From Sorangium cellulosum (GTDB lineage: Bacteria; Myxococcota_A; Polyangia; Polyangiales; Polyangiaceae): a stretch of DNA of 34,135 nt. The stretch lies in NCBI GenBank assembly GCA_020720045.1, contig DYPH01000065.1, forward strand, positions 1-34,135, given 5' to 3'. The notes beneath the pieces were generated by a model. The model saw nothing but the letters and a program-made list of their open reading frames with translations. It was not told the DNA's origin and did no database searches. The translations under genes and the position numbers were made by a program. Of the stretch, positions 8,225 to 34,135 are shown piece after piece (position 1 is the stretch's first letter; each line of letters opens with the position of its first letter).

Positions 8225-8258
8225 TCACGGATATTCCAAGAGAGCTGCTGATACTTCC

Positions 8259-9044
8259 ATGACCAAAATAGTCTCCCCGCGACCACGTGTTCCGCTCCTC
8301 CAAACGGGGGAACGGGCGCGTGTGTTCGCGCTGCGTCGGCGGCGTGAGCGGGGGATGACACTGATTGAGATTATGGTGGTGATGATCATCATCGCTCTCC
8401 TTCTTGGGGTCATGGTCGGTGGGTCGGGGCAGGCCGGGTCGGCGCGTCTCAAGCAGGGGACGACGATGATCGCTGGGGCGGTCCGCGTCGCGTTCGCTCG
8501 CGCCTCGGCGACTTCAAAGCCGGTTCGCCTGGTTTTTGATTTGGAGGAGAGCGCCTTCTGGTTGGAAGAGGGGGACGCCCCGATGCTCGTTCAATCGAAG
8601 GACTCGACGGGCGGTGCCGCCGCAGCCACGAATGTCGAGGCGAGCGCGCTTGCAGAGGCTCAGCGCTATTCTTCGGGGCCAAAAATCGCTCGACCGACGT
8701 TCAAGATGGTGACGGAAACCGGTTTTGCCGTCACTGGCGGAAGCGGCAAGGGGCCGCGCAAGTTGCCGAGAAATATTCATTTTCGGCGTGTCGAGACCGA
8801 TCACGACGACGCCCCAGTCGCCCAGGGGCGCGCCTATCTGTACTTTTGGCCGGGGGGACAAACCGAGCGCGCACAAATTCAGCTCCGTTTGGGGGACGCA
8901 GATACCGAGAATGAAACCGACGTTCTCTCCTTGGGGGTAGCGCCATTGACCGGCGCAGTTTCCGTCAAGAAGGGGGAGATCGCACTTACGCGCCCGAAGT
9001 CCGACGAAGAAGCCTCCGAGCGCACCGCTCCGGGGGGGCTATGA
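8259..9044 (+). CDS. gspH: minor pseudopilin GspH
   Basis: GspH is a minor pseudopilin. The 261-residue product has a long Arg-rich leader (32 residues) ending in Gly32, then MTLIEIMVVMIIIALLLG with Glu at +5, a canonical type IV prepilin peptidase site. The soluble domain is larger than in enterobacterial GspH (about 170 residues) and contains the GspH-like stretch RVAFARASATSKPVRLVFD. No good ribosome binding site precedes the ATG at 8259. A start at 8355 (MTLIE) would remove the leader and is rejected. The stop overlaps the gspI start as ATGA, so translation is likely coupled. Confidence 0.85.
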   Translation: MTKIVSPRPRVPLLQTGERARVFALRRRRERGMTLIEIMVVMIIIALLLGVMVGGSGQAGSARLKQGTTMIAGAVRVAFARASATSKPVRLVFDLEESAFWLEEGDAPMLVQSKDSTGGAAAATNVEASALAEAQRYSSGPKIARPTFKMVTETGFAVTGGSGKGPRKLPRNIHFRRVETDHDDAPVAQGRAYLYFWPGGQTERAQIQLRLGDADTENETDVLSLGVAPLTGAVSVKKGEIALTRPKSDEEASERTAPGGL

Positions 9045-16749: not shown

Positions 16750-19146
16750 ATGTCCGATAAGAAGGGCAAGACCCCCGACGACGAGCAAATCGCATTCGGC
16801 GACGAGCTCCCGGTCCTCCCCATTCGCAACGCCGTTCTCTTCCCAGGAGCGGTCGCCCCCTTCGACGTGGGGCGCGAGAAGTCGGTCGCGCTCGTCGAGG
16901 ACCTCGACAACTTCGCGTCCCCCGTGATCGCGATTTTCGCCCAGCGAGACCCTGCCACCGACGATCCGGGCGCCGATGATCTCCATCCCGTCGGCTGTGC
17001 GGCGCGCGTTCTCAAGGCGCTAAAGCATAGTTCCGGGAACTATTCGCTGATTCTTCAGGGGCTTACGCGCATCAAGCTTCAGGACGTCACCCAGTCGGGG
17101 CCGTACATGAAGGCGAAGGTCGTGCGCATGGAAGAAACGGGCACTGACGACGATGAAGCCGAGGCGCTCTCGATGAGCCTTCGCGACATCGCCCGCCAGG
17201 TGATTCAGCTGATGCCGGAGCTGCCGCGCGAGGCCGGTTCCCTGATTGATTCGATTCAGTCGCCGGGGCCGCTTGCCGACCTCGTTGCCGCGAACCTCGA
17301 CGCACCCGTCGAAGAGAAAGCGCAGCTTCTCGAGACGATCGAAGTGAAGGAGCGCATCCGGAAGGTGCTCAAGCTCCTGACGAGGCAGCTCGAAATCCTC
17401 AAAATGCGCGAACGAATCAATTCGCAAATCAAAGAGGAGATGGGCAAGAATCAGCGCGAGTACGTCCTCCGCCAGCAATTGAAGGCGATCAAGGAAGAGC
17501 TCGGCGAAGACGACGGCGACCAAGGCGATCTCGACGGCCTCGAGGAGCGCATCTCAAAGGCGAACCTCCCCACCGAAGCAGAGACCGTCGCCAAGAAGCA
17601 GATGAAGCGCCTGCGCAACATGCAGGTCGGTTCCGCTGAGTATACGGTCGTTCGGACGTACCTTGACTGGATCCTCGATGTGCCGTGGCACGTCGCCACG
17701 CCGGATAATCTCGATATTGCTCAGGTTCGCAAGGTCCTCGACGAGGACCACTACGGCCTTGAGAAGGTGAAGAAGCGCATTCTCGAGTACTTGGCCGTCC
17801 GCAAGCTCAAGAAGGACAAGAAGGGGCCGATCCTCTGTCTCCTCGGCCCGCCGGGCGTCGGCAAGACCTCCCTCGGGCGCTCAATTGCCCGCGCGCTTGG
17901 CCGCAAGTTTCATCGTATTTCACTCGGCGGTGTTCACGACGAAGCGGCCGTTCGCGGCCACCGGCGTACCTACGTCGGGGCGCTCCCCGGTCAATTGATT
18001 CAGGGCATGAAGAAGACCGGGACGATCAATCCCGTCTTTATGCTTGATGAAATCGACAAGTTGGGCCACGACTTCCGCGGCGACCCGTCGGCGGCCCTCC
18101 TCGAGGTCCTCGATCCCGAGCAGAACCACACCTTCGCCGACCACTACCTGGAGATCCCCTACGACCTCTCCAACGTCATGTTCGTCGCGACCGCCAACAT
18201 GATCGATCCGATCCCGGCACCGCTCCGTGACCGTATGGAAGTCCTGGAAATTCCGGGATATACCCGCCGCGAGAAGCTGAGCATCGCTCGTCAGCACCTC
18301 GTTCCGAAGCAGATCGAAGAGCACGGCATTGCGCCGGGCCAGCTCACGGTCACCGACCGCGCGCTGGAAGTGCTCATCGACGGTTACACCCGCGAAGCCG
18401 GTGTCCGTAATTTGGAGCGGAACGTTGCGAGTTTGATTCGTGGCGTCGCGGTAAAGATCGCGGAGGGGGACACCAATCCGCGGACCATCGACAGCGAGCA
18501 GGACGTCCACGACATCCTCGGCGCGGCGCGGTTCACCAGCGAAGTTGCTGAGCGAACCTCGGAGACTGGGGTTTGTACCGGCCTTGCATGGACGTCGGTC
18601 GGTGGCGAAATCCTCTTCATCGAGGCGACGAAGATGTACGGCTCCGGCAAGCTGACCCTCACCGGCCAGCTCGGCGACGTCATGAAGGAATCGGCCCAGG
18701 CGGCCCTCTCCTACGTCCGCACGAACGCGGAACGCCTCGGAATTGCGAAGGACTTCCTCGACAAGAGCGACATCCACATTCACATTCCGGCCGGCGCAAC
18801 CCCGAAGGACGGCCCCTCGGCGGGCGTGACGATGTTCACGGCGCTTGTGTCGCTCCTCACCGGGATTCGCGTCCGCCATGACGTTGCGATGACCGGAGAA
18901 ATCTCCCTTCGCGGTCGCGTGCTCCCCATCGGTGGTCTCAAGGAGAAGGTCCTTGCGGCCCATCGTGCTGGCATCAAGCGGATCGTCGTACCGGAGCGCA
19001 ACATGGTCGACCTCGAGGAAGTTCCCCAAGAGGTCAAGGACGCGCTTGAGTTCATCTCGGCGTCCAAGCTTGACACCGTCCTTGAGGCTGCCCTCGAGGA
19101 AATGCCGAAGCCGAAGCCGGTCGACGCAATCGTCTCCTCGAACTGA
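16750..19146 (+). CDS. lon: ATP-dependent protease Lon
   Basis: Lon is a cytoplasmic AAA+ serine protease that degrades damaged and regulatory proteins. The 798-residue product has the N-terminal substrate-binding domain (LPVLPIRNAVLFPGAV at about 20-35) and a coiled-coil helix around 200-260. Walker A is GPPGVGKT at 366-373 and Walker B VFMLDEIDK at about 429-437. The protease domain has the catalytic Ser690 in PKDGPSAG and Lys733 in GGLKEK, matching E. coli spacing of 43 residues. Length is normal for LonA. Myxobacteria carry two Lon proteins (lonV and lonD/bsgA); the sequence alone does not let me say which one this is. A strong hairpin terminator follows. Confidence 0.97.
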   Translation: MSDKKGKTPDDEQIAFGDELPVLPIRNAVLFPGAVAPFDVGREKSVALVEDLDNFASPVIAIFAQRDPATDDPGADDLHPVGCAARVLKALKHSSGNYSLILQGLTRIKLQDVTQSGPYMKAKVVRMEETGTDDDEAEALSMSLRDIARQVIQLMPELPREAGSLIDSIQSPGPLADLVAANLDAPVEEKAQLLETIEVKERIRKVLKLLTRQLEILKMRERINSQIKEEMGKNQREYVLRQQLKAIKEELGEDDGDQGDLDGLEERISKANLPTEAETVAKKQMKRLRNMQVGSAEYTVVRTYLDWILDVPWHVATPDNLDIAQVRKVLDEDHYGLEKVKKRILEYLAVRKLKKDKKGPILCLLGPPGVGKTSLGRSIARALGRKFHRISLGGVHDEAAVRGHRRTYVGALPGQLIQGMKKTGTINPVFMLDEIDKLGHDFRGDPSAALLEVLDPEQNHTFADHYLEIPYDLSNVMFVATANMIDPIPAPLRDRMEVLEIPGYTRREKLSIARQHLVPKQIEEHGIAPGQLTVTDRALEVLIDGYTREAGVRNLERNVASLIRGVAVKIAEGDTNPRTIDSEQDVHDILGAARFTSEVAERTSETGVCTGLAWTSVGGEILFIEATKMYGSGKLTLTGQLGDVMKESAQAALSYVRTNAERLGIAKDFLDKSDIHIHIPAGATPKDGPSAGVTMFTALVSLLTGIRVRHDVAMTGEISLRGRVLPIGGLKEKVLAAHRAGIKRIVVPERNMVDLEEVPQEVKDALEFISASKLDTVLEAALEEMPKPKPVDAIVSSN

Positions 19147-19162
19147 TCGAGCCCGTTATCGT

Positions 19163-19203
19163 GAAAGAGCCACTCGGGAAGTCTCCCGGGTGGCTCTTTC
19201 TTT
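19163..19203 (+). terminator. Rho-independent terminator after lon
   Basis: The left arm 19163-19179 (GAAAGAGCCACTCGGGA) pairs with 19184-19200 over 17 bp with a single U-G wobble and a four-base loop. A short pyrimidine/T stretch follows. It lies 17 bases after the lon stop and 23 bases beyond the end of the convergent kinase gene. It probably serves lon mainly; on the minus strand the wobble becomes a C-A mismatch. Confidence 0.85.
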
Positions 19204-19225
19204 CGCGGATGAACGCGAGGCTTCC

Positions 19226-21217
19226 CTACCCATGCGCGGCGAGCGGACCGGGCGCCGTGAGTTCCGCGATCGCTTTGAAGAGTTCCCGTGGGAAGAGTGG
19301 CTTCGCGAGCACGTGCGTGACTGCGAGCGCAGCGCCCCGGGCTCGTAGCTCGGAGCCGACTACGGCGCTCACGAGAATTGCAGGAAGATCAGAACTTTCC
19401 GCGCGCACGCGCGCGACCAGCTCGACCCCTTCCAGCCGCGGCATCGTCTGGTCGGCAATCAGCAAATCAATGGCACCCGGGGCGGCGGAATAGAGGGCCC
19501 ACGCTGCTTCGCCGTCTTCGGCGGCCAGGACCTCATGGCCTTCGCGCTGAAGAATGCGTACAAACGCGTTTCGGAGCGGCGCGTCGTCTTCCGCGACGAG
19601 AATGCGCAAACGCCCGCTGTTGCCGATCGCACGCCGCGCTTGGCCGGACGCGCGTGCAACGGTGGGGCGCATGCGTTCTGGGTCGGTCGGTAGCGTGACA
19701 CGAATGCGCGTTCCGAACTGGGGACGGCTGTCGACGTGGATCATGCCGCGGTGGGAGGCAACAATCCCCAAAGTTGCCGCGAGGCCGAGGCCGCGACCTT
19801 TGAATCTTGTCGAGAAGAAGGGGTCGAACATTCGCGCCGTCGTCTCCGGCGTCATTCCATGCCCTTGATCGAGGATCTCAAAGAAGGCAGCTGGCTCGTG
19901 TTGGACGCCGCCGAGGTCGTCGAGCGTCGTTGTCCCCGCACGAAGGAGGACACGTCCGCCGTGCGAGTCGCACGCTTCACAGGCGTTTGCGACGAGCTGG
20001 CCGACTACGCCGGCGAGCGCCGCGCGGTCTCCACGGACGATCGCAGGGCCAGTATCAGTGCTGTTAAGCTCCGCTACTTCAAAGGAAATATGGGGCGCGG
20101 AGGCGTCGGCGGCCGCTTCATGAAGCAGCTCAATAAGCGCGATGGGACCGTTTGGCTGCGTCCCCTGACCGACGGAGAACAAAAGGTCGCGCGTCACGCG
20201 GGCGGTACTCCGAACCGCCGCATCTATTCCGTCGAGCGCTGGGCGAACGGTCTCAAAACTGCTCGATTCCGGCCGAAGAGTTTGAGTGAGCGTCTCTACT
20301 TCTGACGTTTGATTCGCTTCGCCGCGTTCCGATCGGCGCAAGGTTTCTCGCAATGATTCTACGTGAGCGACTACGCTGGAAAGGAGATTGTTGCAGCGAT
20401 GGGCCACCCCCTCGGCGACTGCCGCCAATTCGGCGTGGCTCTCGGGGTGCCGTACGGTAATCGGCGCCGCTCCGCGCGTCTGCGTGGAGAGTGGCGCTTG
20501 AGGTGCGGGAATCGCGACGAGCGGAAGCTCTTGTTCTTCCGGATGTTCGTCCCCTGGCTCTGATCGAACGAGCGCTGCACACAACGCGGCAAGCGTTTCG
20601 TAAAACGGGCGAGCACTCGGGAGCAGGGCGTCGGCCTGATGGAACCCCAGCAGTAAGACCCCGCGCCGCGCATTCGTTGTGCGCCGGGCGCCGGAGGCGA
20701 TCGGCGGGAACGAGCGTCGGATGTCTGCGCCATCGTCGTCGGTGGAGCGAGGCTCAACGGCGAGGACCGAAGGTGCCGGGCGCCGTTGGCGGCCTCCAAA
20801 GGGGAGGTAGGCTACCGCGGCAAATGCGTCGAAGGCGGGAATGCGGGCGAAGGCCTCGTCGTCCAGGTCTTCCGATTGTTGGTGCACCAAATAAATCGGT
20901 TGATTGCGACGGTGGGCAGCCGCGACACCAACGAGCGCATCGGTCGGAACGGTCCCCCATACAATGCGATCGGCTTCAAGAAACGTTGGTGAGGCAACAA
21001 GTTCGAGGGCGTCTTCTGTCGCGAGGTAAAGGGCGACATTGTCCGCTTGGGCAGCTTCCAGCAGGCATCTTTCAAGGGCAACCGGGAACGGGCGCAGCCG
21101 GGCCTCACCACCGACTTCATCCACAAGGCGACTCAAACGCAGCCGCTCTTCGGGTGCAAGCGCACCCAGCGCGGCGGACAACGGCGCGTTTCCTACGCCG
21201 AGCAACTTCCAAGGCAT
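19226..21217 (-). CDS. hybrid histidine kinase with C-terminal receiver
   Basis: The 663-residue cytoplasmic protein has no membrane segments. It has a GAF-like sensory region (about 40-220), a HisKA-like helix with His273 in EGVAHRCNNLLS, and an HATPase domain. The N box is QLVANACEACD at about 407-417, the G1 box DQGHGMT, the F box MFDPFFSTRF and the G2 box KGRGLGLAATLG. The receiver domain (about 537-655) carries the acidic pair in VAEDDAP, phospho-acceptor Asp589 in IADQTMP and Lys of VLAKP. The H box has RC where the related family usually has DF (AHDFNN). Signals would pass His to Asp within the protein or onward to a phosphotransfer partner not in the window. It follows murI on the same strand after a 180-base gap. 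Confidence 0.9.
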   Translation of the reverse strand: MPWKLLGVGNAPLSAALGALAPEERLRLSRLVDEVGGEARLRPFPVALERCLLEAAQADNVALYLATEDALELVASPTFLEADRIVWGTVPTDALVGVAAAHRRNQPIYLVHQQSEDLDDEAFARIPAFDAFAAVAYLPFGGRQRRPAPSVLAVEPRSTDDDGADIRRSFPPIASGARRTTNARRGVLLLGFHQADALLPSARPFYETLAALCAALVRSEPGDEHPEEQELPLVAIPAPQAPLSTQTRGAAPITVRHPESHAELAAVAEGVAHRCNNLLSSVVAHVESLRETLRRSERGEANQTSEVETLTQTLRPESSSFETVRPALDGIDAAVRSTARVTRDLLFSVGQGTQPNGPIALIELLHEAAADASAPHISFEVAELNSTDTGPAIVRGDRAALAGVVGQLVANACEACDSHGGRVLLRAGTTTLDDLGGVQHEPAAFFEILDQGHGMTPETTARMFDPFFSTRFKGRGLGLAATLGIVASHRGMIHVDSRPQFGTRIRVTLPTDPERMRPTVARASGQARRAIGNSGRLRILVAEDDAPLRNAFVRILQREGHEVLAAEDGEAAWALYSAAPGAIDLLIADQTMPRLEGVELVARVRAESSDLPAILVSAVVGSELRARGAALAVTHVLAKPLFPRELFKAIAELTAPGPLAAHG

Positions 21218-32030: not shown

Positions 32031-33374
32031 TTACCCTTCAGAGATGATGCGTTCGACGGTCCGCGTCGACATCGTCCCGGCGATCACCTCTGGATCGGCC
32101 AGCAGGCGCTTGTGAAGCGGGATATTTGTACGAATTCCGCCAATGAGAAATTCGTCGAGGGCGCGGCGCATTCGGACGATCGCTTCCGCCCGCGTCGGCG
32201 CGTGGACGATGAGCTTGGCGAGCATGGAGTCGTAGTGGCTCGGGACGGTGAAACCGCCGTAAACGCCCGAATCGACGCGCACGCCAGCGCCGCCGGGGGT
32301 GAAGTACTCGGTGATAAGTCCAGGCCACGGCGCGAAGGTCTTTGGGTCTTCCGCGTTAATTCGGCACTCGATCGCGTGGCCGCGGAAGCTCCAGGAACGG
32401 GTGTCCGGAATATCGAGTTTTTCGCCGGCGGCGGCCCGAATTTGCAACGCGACAAGGTCGAGCCCGGTCACCATTTCGGTGACGGTGTGCTCGACTTGCA
32501 CGCGCGTATTCATCTCGAGGAAGAACAGCTCACCGTGCTCGTCCATGATGAATTCGAGGGTCCCGAGCGACGTGTAGCCGGTCTCGCGAATCGCCGTTCG
32601 AATGCGCTCGCCAATCGCCTGGCGCTTCTCGGCGCCGAGGGCGGGGCTCGGCGCCTCTTCCATCACTTTTTGGTGGCGCCGCTGGAGGGAGCACTCGCGC
32701 TCGCCGAGCGTCCAGATGCCGCCGTGCTTGTCTGCAAGTACCTGGAATTCGATGTGTTTCGGGCGCTCGATGAAGCGCTCAAGGTACACGTCCGGGTTCT
32801 TGAAGCCGGCTTCTGCTTCGTGGGTCGCCTGGCTGAATGCCGCGGCGACCTCGTCGGTCGTTCGCACGATGCGCATGCCGCGCCCGCCGCCGCCCCCGGA
32901 AGCCTTTAGAATTACGGGGAATCCGACGCGGTTCGCCTCTTCGACGGCGTGTGCCGCGTCCCTCAGAACCGCGCTCCCGGTGAGCAACGGGAGGCCGAAG
33001 CGTGCTGCGTTTTCCCGCGAGCGAACCTTGTCGCCCCACGCATGCATCGACTCGGGAGACGGGCCGATGAACGTGAGCCCGCACTTACCGCACAGGCTCG
33101 CAAACTCGGAATTTTCCGAGAGAAACCCGTAGCCGGGGTGGATTGCATCGGCGCCGGTGATTTCCGCGGCGGAGATGATCGCCGGGATGTGCAGGTAGCT
33201 TCGGCGGCCGTCGGCGGGGCCGATGCAGACCGCCTCGTCGGCAAACCGCACGTGGAGGGCGCGCTCGTCGGCGGTCGAGTGGACGGCGACGGTGGCGATG
33301 CCGAGTTCGCGGCAGGCACGCATGATGCGCAGTGCGATCTCGCCACGATTTGCGATGAGGATTTTCTTGAACAT
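32031..33374 (-). CDS. accC: acetyl-CoA carboxylase, biotin carboxylase subunit AccC
   Basis: AccC carboxylates the biotin on AccB in an ATP-dependent reaction, the first step of fatty acid synthesis. The 447-residue product has the family start [17 protein letters not shown] and IHPGYGFLSEN (about 79-89). The ATP-grasp Gly-rich loop is KASGGGGGRGMRIV (about 157-170). RHIEFQVLADK-type KHIEFQVLADKHG, ECSLQRRHQKVMEEAPSP and EMNTRVQVEHTVTEM are also present. Length is normal. Its ATG overlaps the accB stop (TGATG). The usual neighbour arrangement is kept. Confidence 0.97.
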   Translation of the reverse strand: MFKKILIANRGEIALRIMRACRELGIATVAVHSTADERALHVRFADEAVCIGPADGRRSYLHIPAIISAAEITGADAIHPGYGFLSENSEFASLCGKCGLTFIGPSPESMHAWGDKVRSRENAARFGLPLLTGSAVLRDAAHAVEEANRVGFPVILKASGGGGGRGMRIVRTTDEVAAAFSQATHEAEAGFKNPDVYLERFIERPKHIEFQVLADKHGGIWTLGERECSLQRRHQKVMEEAPSPALGAEKRQAIGERIRTAIRETGYTSLGTLEFIMDEHGELFFLEMNTRVQVEHTVTEMVTGLDLVALQIRAAAGEKLDIPDTRSWSFRGHAIECRINAEDPKTFAPWPGLITEYFTPGGAGVRVDSGVYGGFTVPSHYDSMLAKLIVHAPTRAEAIVRMRRALDEFLIGGIRTNIPLHKRLLADPEVIAGTMSTRTVERIISEG

Positions 33375-33817
33375 CAGCTCTTCTTGATGCGGAAGAGCTT
33401 TTGTCCGAACTCAACAGGCTTGCCGTTTTCCGCATAGATCGCGGTGACGACGCCTCCGAACTCGGCCTCGATTTCGTTCATCAATTTCATCGCTTCAACG
33501 ATGCAAAGCGTCTGGCCGACTTTGACGCTGGCGCCGACTTCGATAAACGGGGGAACGTCCGGTCCCGCGGCACGGTAGAAGGTACCGACAAATGGGGAAG
33601 TGACGTCGGTTCCGCCGTCGTCGGCAATAGCGGCTTCCGTTGCCTTTGCGGCGCCGGGGGCGGTGTGGAGAACCGAGGCGATCGGCGCGGCCGCAACGGC
33701 GACGCCTCCGCGGACGATGCGAATCCGCACCCCCGCCTCTTCGTGTTCGAACTCGGCGACGTTTTCTTCGGCGAGGACCGCGAGAAGCGATTTGAGTTTG
33801 TCCGTGTCGACGTTCAC
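33374..33817 (-). CDS. accB: acetyl-CoA carboxylase biotin carboxyl carrier protein AccB
   Basis: AccB carries the biotin that shuttles CO2 between AccC and the carboxyltransferase. The 147-residue product has an N-terminal helix region (about 1-38), a flexible Ala/Pro linker and the biotinyl domain (about 70-147) with Lys111 in the canonical [10 protein letters not shown]. The GTG at 33817 is preceded by AAGGAG five bases upstream. It is followed by accC with overlapping stop and start. The 5' region contains palindromes and the structured element at 33871-33978. Confidence 0.95.
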
Positions 33818-33847
33818 GAGGACTCCTTACGTAAGCGACAGTGCTGA

Positions 33848-33859
33848 CGGGCATGCCCG
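33848..33859. promoter_or_regulatory. 12-bp palindrome upstream of accB
   Basis: CGGGCATGCCCG is a perfect palindrome 31 bases before the accB start. A second palindrome, TTACGTAA (33827-33834), overlaps the edge of the accB ribosome binding site. Either could be an operator for a fatty acid synthesis regulator. No known consensus is matched with confidence. Confidence 0.3.
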
Positions 33860-33870
33860 ATCATGGGAGT

Positions 33871-33978
33871 TTGGGTGCGGTAGCTTGTTGAAATTCTTTG
33901 TGAAACGCCGGAAGGCGTCACAAAGTCGCCGCACCCAAGGCACCGAATGCCGGCGCAAGCTAGGCCGGTCGCGGTGCC
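33871..33978 (+). ncRNA. structured element: nested hairpins with a pseudoknot
   Basis: Hairpin A has an outer 10-bp stem (33871-33880 with 33929-33938) and an inner 7-bp stem (33896-33902 with 33919-33925). The terminal stem ACGCC-GGAA-GGCGT (33905-33918) is closed by a GNRA-type loop. Directly adjoining, hairpin B has a 7-bp stem GGCACCG (33939-33945) with CGGTGCC (33972-33978) and an inner 5-bp stem (33950-33954 with 33964-33968). The bulge of A (TAGCTTG, 33881-33887) is perfectly complementary to the loop of B (CAAGCTA, 33956-33962), giving a pseudoknot. A third hairpin (33994-34019) follows. The GNRA loop favours the + strand, but it could be the accB leader on the minus strand. No known RNA family was recognised. 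Confidence 0.5.
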
Positions 33979-34135
33979 TCACACAAGCGTGAAGCGGCTG
34001 CGTAAAAAACTCGCACCGCGATCGATTCCTCCGCTGGACGACCGGGCATCGCTCGGCGAACACGCGTTTCCGATAGACGCAGCGCTAGGTAGCTGCTCGG
34101 AATTGCAATTTACACGGGATGTGATCAAAGCAATG
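33979..34135. other. right flank without a convincing gene
   Basis: No protein-coding signal is convincing here. GCGG-c-TGCG (33994-34002) pairs with CGCA-CCGC (34012-34019) around an A-rich loop. Smaller hairpins are possible at 34042-34056 (CCGgGC with GCtCGG) and 34064-34080 (GCGT with ACGC). The region may continue the structured element to its left. Together with 33818-33978 it makes 318 bases with no supported gene. Confidence 0.4.

Follow-up and report, generated by a model that had tools for sequence, protein, structure and literature searches.

The structured element upstream of accB in a myxobacterial contig is best read as a modest, genus-specific promoter and leader

We analyzed a compact palindromic element upstream of accB in a window of 34,135 bases, which is the complete contig of a draft genome (window and contig end at the same point). 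The reading that we favor, and to which we give an even chance, is that the accBC promoter lies inside one palindrome (palindrome A) and that a second hairpin (hairpin B) lies in the 5' leader, both on the minus strand. The element is best read as a modest, genus-specific promoter and leader of an ordinary kind rather than as a new riboswitch. The evidence for this consists of constraint on the intergenic block, the pattern of substitutions against a sister genome (G001), a promoter-like match, and the absence of the element outside the genus in the genomes searched. Its host group would be a single genus within the Myxococcota, in a Polyangiaceae-like family. The features of the locus are as follows.

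32031 to 33374, minus strand: accC, the next gene after accB (TIGR00514, 646 bits against a cut-off of 627)
33374 to 33817, minus strand: accB, biotin carboxyl carrier protein, GTG start (TIGR00531, 141 bits against a cut-off of 115)
33823 to 33828, minus strand: Shine-Dalgarno site AAGGAG of accB, seen in the sequence and unchanged in G001
33818 to 34010, minus strand: constrained intergenic block (putative promoter plus 5' leader), with 6 of 193 positions differing from G001
33871 to 33938, minus strand: hairpin B, with a 10-bp outer stem and 7-bp and 5-bp inner stems, predicted to lie in the 5' leader
33939 to 33978, minus strand: hairpin or palindrome A, with 7-bp and 5-bp stems and a loop containing TAGCTT
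33957 to 33962, minus strand: candidate accB -10 box TAGCTT, located within the palindrome A loop, the best -10 match in 318 nt
33981 to 33986, minus strand: candidate -35 box TTGTGT, with an 18-nt spacer to the -10 box, in a stretch identical in G001
34088 to 34135, no strand assigned: end of a high-copy transposon-like repeat where the contig stops, bounding the native control region of accB on its upstream side

The position upstream of accB given by the first-pass annotation was upheld, with the TIGR00531 gene followed by accC and the intergenic block constrained. By accB, the nearest named relative in the genome collection, from which records very near the window may be absent, was a Labilithrix MAG (63% identity), and the remaining near matches were labelled Myxococcales or Polyangiaceae. 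In G001 the element is found at the same locus as in the window, with a divergent gene upstream of it. The product of this gene had no NCBIfam match and can be read from its N-terminus as a putative lipoprotein. The divergent gene is not seen in the window because the high-copy repeat starts at 34088, and this repeat end confines a native accB promoter to about 270 nt. The repeat (GGTAGCTGCTCGGAATTGC...) gave at least 40 matches in its own genome, the window's included (40 scored of 169 candidates), and at least 31 of these 40 sit at contig ends. CTA stood directly before the repeat in 25 of 25 cases among the matches listed (24 distinct sites). No match at E<=0.001 was obtained in the other 107 family genomes using a query of 51 repeat bases plus 13 extraneous bases. 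The end of the repeat resembles that of a transposon with a CTAG-like target, and the whole looks like an amplified CTAG-targeting transposon that breaks the assembly.

The first-pass annotation described five helices and a 7-base complement between the loop of one hairpin and the bulge of the other. Reading the letters directly confirmed all of them.

33871 to 33880 (TTGGGTGCGG) with 33929 to 33938 (CCGCACCCAA), plus-strand letters: outer stem of hairpin B, 10 bp
33896 to 33902 (CTTTGTG) with 33919 to 33925 (CACAAAG), plus-strand letters: inner stem of hairpin B, 7 bp
33905 to 33909 (ACGCC) with 33914 to 33918 (GGCGT), plus-strand letters: inner stem of hairpin B, 5 bp, enclosing GGAA at 33910 to 33913
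33939 to 33945 (GGCACCG) with 33972 to 33978 (CGGTGCC), plus-strand letters: stem of hairpin A, 7 bp
33950 to 33954 (CCGGC) with 33964 to 33968 (GCCGG), plus-strand letters: stem of hairpin A, 5 bp
33881 to 33887, minus strand: 7-mer in the bulge of hairpin B, proposed to form a pseudoknot with loop A, with an exact complement in the window

In plus-strand letters the complement pairs TAGCTTG at 33881 to 33887 exactly with CAAGCTA at 33956 to 33962. The GGAA loop is of the GNRA type. Folding of 33861 to 33988 (128 bases) using RNAfold gave -60.8 kcal/mol on the plus strand and -56.0 kcal/mol on the minus strand. Compared to 200 dinucleotide shuffles per strand this resulted in z scores of -4.27 (plus) and -4.53 (minus), and on either strand 0 of the 200 shuffles folded as well. 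The element had been called very unlikely by chance, a statement that has to be qualified, as folds of equal strength occur about once per 20 kb of its own genome. This rate comes from 6719 windows covering 226 kb (the window and 20 contig stretches), scored with a faster regression z instead of full shuffles for each window. Sixteen of the 6719 folded at least as strongly as the element; one of these overlaps the element itself, and the remaining 15 represent 11 loci. Two further windows with folds as strong as the element's are at 19105 to 19232 and 8257 to 8384, and the former, which covers the space separating convergent reading frames, is a possible terminator. The strongest fold of the sampled 226 kb was at L169 11745 to 11872 (regression z about -7, minus strand).

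The combined architecture was also compared to shuffled sequence. A loose motif, which requires two 7-bp stems side by side and a 7-mer loop complement, occurred 22 times in the 226 kb, whereas 20 shuffles averaged 15.1 occurrences, with a maximum of 22. The strict motif, with criteria chosen after the element had been seen, occurred once in the 226 kb and at least once in 16 of 200 shuffles of that 226 kb (mean 0.08), a chance rate of about 1% per 34-kb window. Adjacent stem pairs in the strict-form control numbered 1045 in the real sequence versus 1062 in the shuffles, and we suspect that these high counts are due to a few repetitive tracts. The architecture exceeds chance, but not by an enormous margin, and it is not extraordinary.

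The element is single copy. Searching its own genome returned one match at E<=0.001, the element itself, and the second-best match (E<=1) covered 19 bases. A plain DNA search of 59 relatives, its own genome included, identified one other carrier, G001, at 96% identity (8e-55); G001 is also the only further member of the genus among the genomes searched. Some match at E<=1 was seen in 40 of the 59 genomes. The best after its own genome and G001 had an E of 0.0056 over 26 bases, and these short matches were regarded as chance. We then used a covariance model (R1) built from two sequences, its own genome and G001. At E<=0.1, R1 detected nothing beyond the two training loci in 108 family, 183 order and 377 phylum genomes, sets that overlap and were searched with stricter filters, so that weak matches may be lost. 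At E<=1 the family genomes yielded seven weak matches in six other genomes (best E 0.116), also regarded as chance. When R1 was run over the window and 37 loci from the accB searches (28 of 30, two own-genus loci being left out, and 9 of 80), the best E apart from the window's own match was 0.13. Of the 108 family genomes, 106 gave a match to accB itself, in some cases a weak one due to other biotin-carrier domains. The gene is thus widespread across the family, unlike the element. Phage and plasmid records, searched with distant settings, gave no match to the element. A 22-base pattern was found in one viral contig, L173, and was dropped as chance since it lies in open frames and R1 finds nothing there. 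Among the titles listed in literature searches, none dealt with a structured accB leader in myxobacteria.

Comparison with G001 demonstrated constraint across the intergenic region. The block from 33818 to 34010, its upper limit chosen after the alignment had been seen, differs at 6 of 193 positions as compared to 68 of the 328 fourfold sites in accB plus accC (p = 2e-9) or 10 of the 81 in accB alone (p = 0.008). It extends from the start codon to about 24 nt upstream of the -35 box. The 79 bases upstream of the block, two of which lie in the repeat, carry 13 differences (p = 3e-4). Other 125-nt windows in the aligned 6.3 kb were equally or more conserved, one of them with 0 differences. The block looks to be under selection.

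Four of the differences fall within the element, at 33873, 33884, 33899 and 33975. Those at 33873 and 33899, both in stems of hairpin B, produce G-U pairs on the minus strand and broken pairs on the plus strand. The predicted energy of hairpin B changes from -30.8 to -28.9 kcal/mol on the minus strand and from -34.2 to -26.6 kcal/mol on the plus strand, a loss of 7.6 kcal/mol. At 33975 the change disrupts the 7-bp stem of palindrome A at its middle pair, on both strands. The change at 33884 breaks the proposed pseudoknot on both strands, with TAGCTTG/CAAGCTA becoming TAGCTTG/CAATCTA in this sole homologue. One of the 7 pairs is lost and the energy of the 7-mer duplex goes from -7.3 to -0.6 kcal/mol; the pseudoknot proposed in the first pass is not supported. 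No compensatory change was found in the element in G001, the only homologous locus to examine; two changes were one-sided to G-U and two were breaking. With one homologous locus and four element differences, the strand argument rests on the two G-U changes. The substitution pattern leans toward an accB-strand RNA for hairpin B but is not a proof of one. In the earlier proposal of a structured accB-strand leader, hairpin B is the part whose pairing the changes preserve, and hairpin A and the pseudoknot are the parts with broken pairs.

To locate a promoter, a -10 matrix from the accB loci of 17 relatives was scanned over 33818 to 34135 (318 nt) on both strands. The top score, 6.77 bits, went to GCCTAGCTTGCG, a minus-strand site within the palindrome A loop. 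The second-best site was GCCTTGGGTGCG in hairpin B, also on the minus strand (5.25), and the best score on the plus strand was -0.15. The TAGCTT score is above only 3 of the 17 leave-one-out scores of the relatives (range -1.4 to 15.1), and about 0.09 sites of this strength would be expected on one strand in every 193 nt. TAGCTT is the only accB-strand TANNNT in 33818 to 34087. The stretch from 33979 to 34010, which contains TTGTGT, is identical in G001, and both boxes are unchanged there. G001 has a second accB-strand TANNNT, TAAATT, at the foot of hairpin B. A candidate -10 box like those of the relatives' accB is present with a candidate -35 box at a spacing within 16 to 18 nt (TAGCTT and TTGTGT, at 18 nt). 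A generic sigma-70 scan detected no promoter in the region. TAGCTT appears to be the best, though a weak, match to the accB -10 boxes of the relatives.

Among relatives, 17 of 36 loci had TANNNT 12 to 20 nt before the accB start and the other 19 did not, a count that omits L034 (same genus) and L063 and L064 (taken as the same loci as L035 and L044). All 17 TANNNT-bearing loci (within L035 to L061) are from the same family, and this spacing suggests near-leaderless accB mRNAs there. In the window's own genome, with starts called crudely by a longest-frame rule, TANNNT was concentrated 12 to 17 nt before starts, with 14 sites over 149 starts in two 3-nt bins and 0 to 4 sites in every other 3-nt bin.

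From these data we infer a start site, an operator role for palindrome A and a function for the leader. RNA polymerase would use TTGTGT-18-TAGCTT, with the -10 box forming the loop of palindrome A, and transcription would start near 33950, inside this palindrome. Palindrome A would then be mostly untranscribed and so would act, if at all, as DNA, as an operator-like inverted repeat around the -10 box. The 7-base loop/bulge complement would likewise be a DNA inverted repeat and not a working pseudoknot, as the pseudoknot could not form in an RNA that starts inside palindrome A. The leader would be about 130 nt long, with hairpin B first and then the Shine-Dalgarno site. Hairpin B would be a plain 5' stem-loop, most likely protecting or tuning the accB mRNA. 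In predictions for three assumed transcripts the Shine-Dalgarno bases were partly to mostly paired, the degree varying with the assumed 5' end. If only hairpin B is active as RNA, its pairs would be kept and those of palindrome A and the pseudoknot lost, as seen in G001.

If true, this reading gives accBC of this genus a promoter some 140 nt before the gene and a leader that carries a hairpin and a Shine-Dalgarno site, in contrast to the 17 of 36 relatives with a promoter-like box only 12 to 20 nt before the accB start. This is a modest result. The case also illustrates that neat nested hairpins with a complementary loop, read from one sequence, can be dismantled by one relative.

The first alternative, which we regard as possible but doubtful, is a genus-specific structured accBC RNA leader, with both hairpins transcribed from a promoter upstream of 33978. 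The fold of such a leader might or might not include the kissing contact. The leader would act on translation or on RNA stability, either in the manner of a riboswitch or through a bound protein, for example AccB. The perfect nested helices (z of -4.53 on the minus strand), an architecture above chance, constraint over the whole block and two G-U compatible changes on the accB strand are consistent with it. However, the kissing pairing and the 7-bp stem of hairpin A are each broken in G001 without compensation, no accB-strand TANNNT lies between the element and the transposon-like end, and the element was absent outside the genus at E<=0.1 in the genomes searched. A search against Rfam produced no match at the gathering score and three up to E 10 (best E 1.3). 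As the window matched no Rfam family at that score and the element was confined to the genus among the genomes searched, the riboswitch-like leader suggested by the first-pass annotation was not supported.

It is also unlikely, in our estimate, that this is simply a constrained promoter region with incidental inverted repeats, in which neither palindrome has a role and strong hairpins are common, the genome being GC-rich. The frequency of equally strong folds (16 of 6719 sampled windows), a loose motif near the shuffle rate and the breaking of pairs by two of the four substitutions suggest such an explanation, but the strict double-hairpin form is rare (found in 16 of 200 shuffles of 226 kb) and the stem pairs of hairpin B survive two changes on the accB strand.

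It is improbable that the accBC leader of this one genus contains a pseudoknotted, lineage-specific RNA switch that responds to a product or cofactor of acetyl-CoA carboxylase and in which the sister species has lost or weakened the kissing contact. More improbable again is the independent plus-strand ncRNA that was originally considered. The lower folding energy of that strand and the GGAA loop would fit it, but all four element substitutions break standard pairs there, hairpin B losing 7.6 kcal/mol, the best -10 score does not exceed -0.15, and no terminator-like site was found in 33780 to 34135. A dispersed structured repeat or MITE, as the palindromic make-up might suggest, has a negligible probability for this assembly given a single match in its own genome at E<=0.001 (the next being 19 bases at E<=1), a sister genome with the element at the same locus, no phage or plasmid match, and a sole viral pattern match that is chance and inside an open frame.

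Promoter-overlapping inverted repeats (operators) and 5' UTR stem-loops are a general kind of feature in bacterial mRNAs. Our preferred reading, an accBC promoter inside palindrome A followed by hairpin B in the leader, places the element among them. Unlike ordinary operators, the element has a palindrome arm that is broken in a second genome (G001), and we name no regulator for it. Like the riboswitches and structured leaders of Rfam, it is made up of compact hairpins upstream of a biosynthetic gene, but unlike them it has no Rfam match in the window, no phylogenetic spread in the genomes searched, no covariation seen against its one homologue and no terminator-like expression platform. Transcription of accBC is regulated in another system, according to the passage of PMC3896788 that cites James and Cronan, and as far as that passage goes the likeness to our locus is that of the operon, which is the same. 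With ordinary operators and 5' UTR stem-loops the element shares a palindrome centred on the candidate -10 box and, as in ordinary 5' UTR stem-loops, a stable hairpin between the putative start site and the Shine-Dalgarno site.
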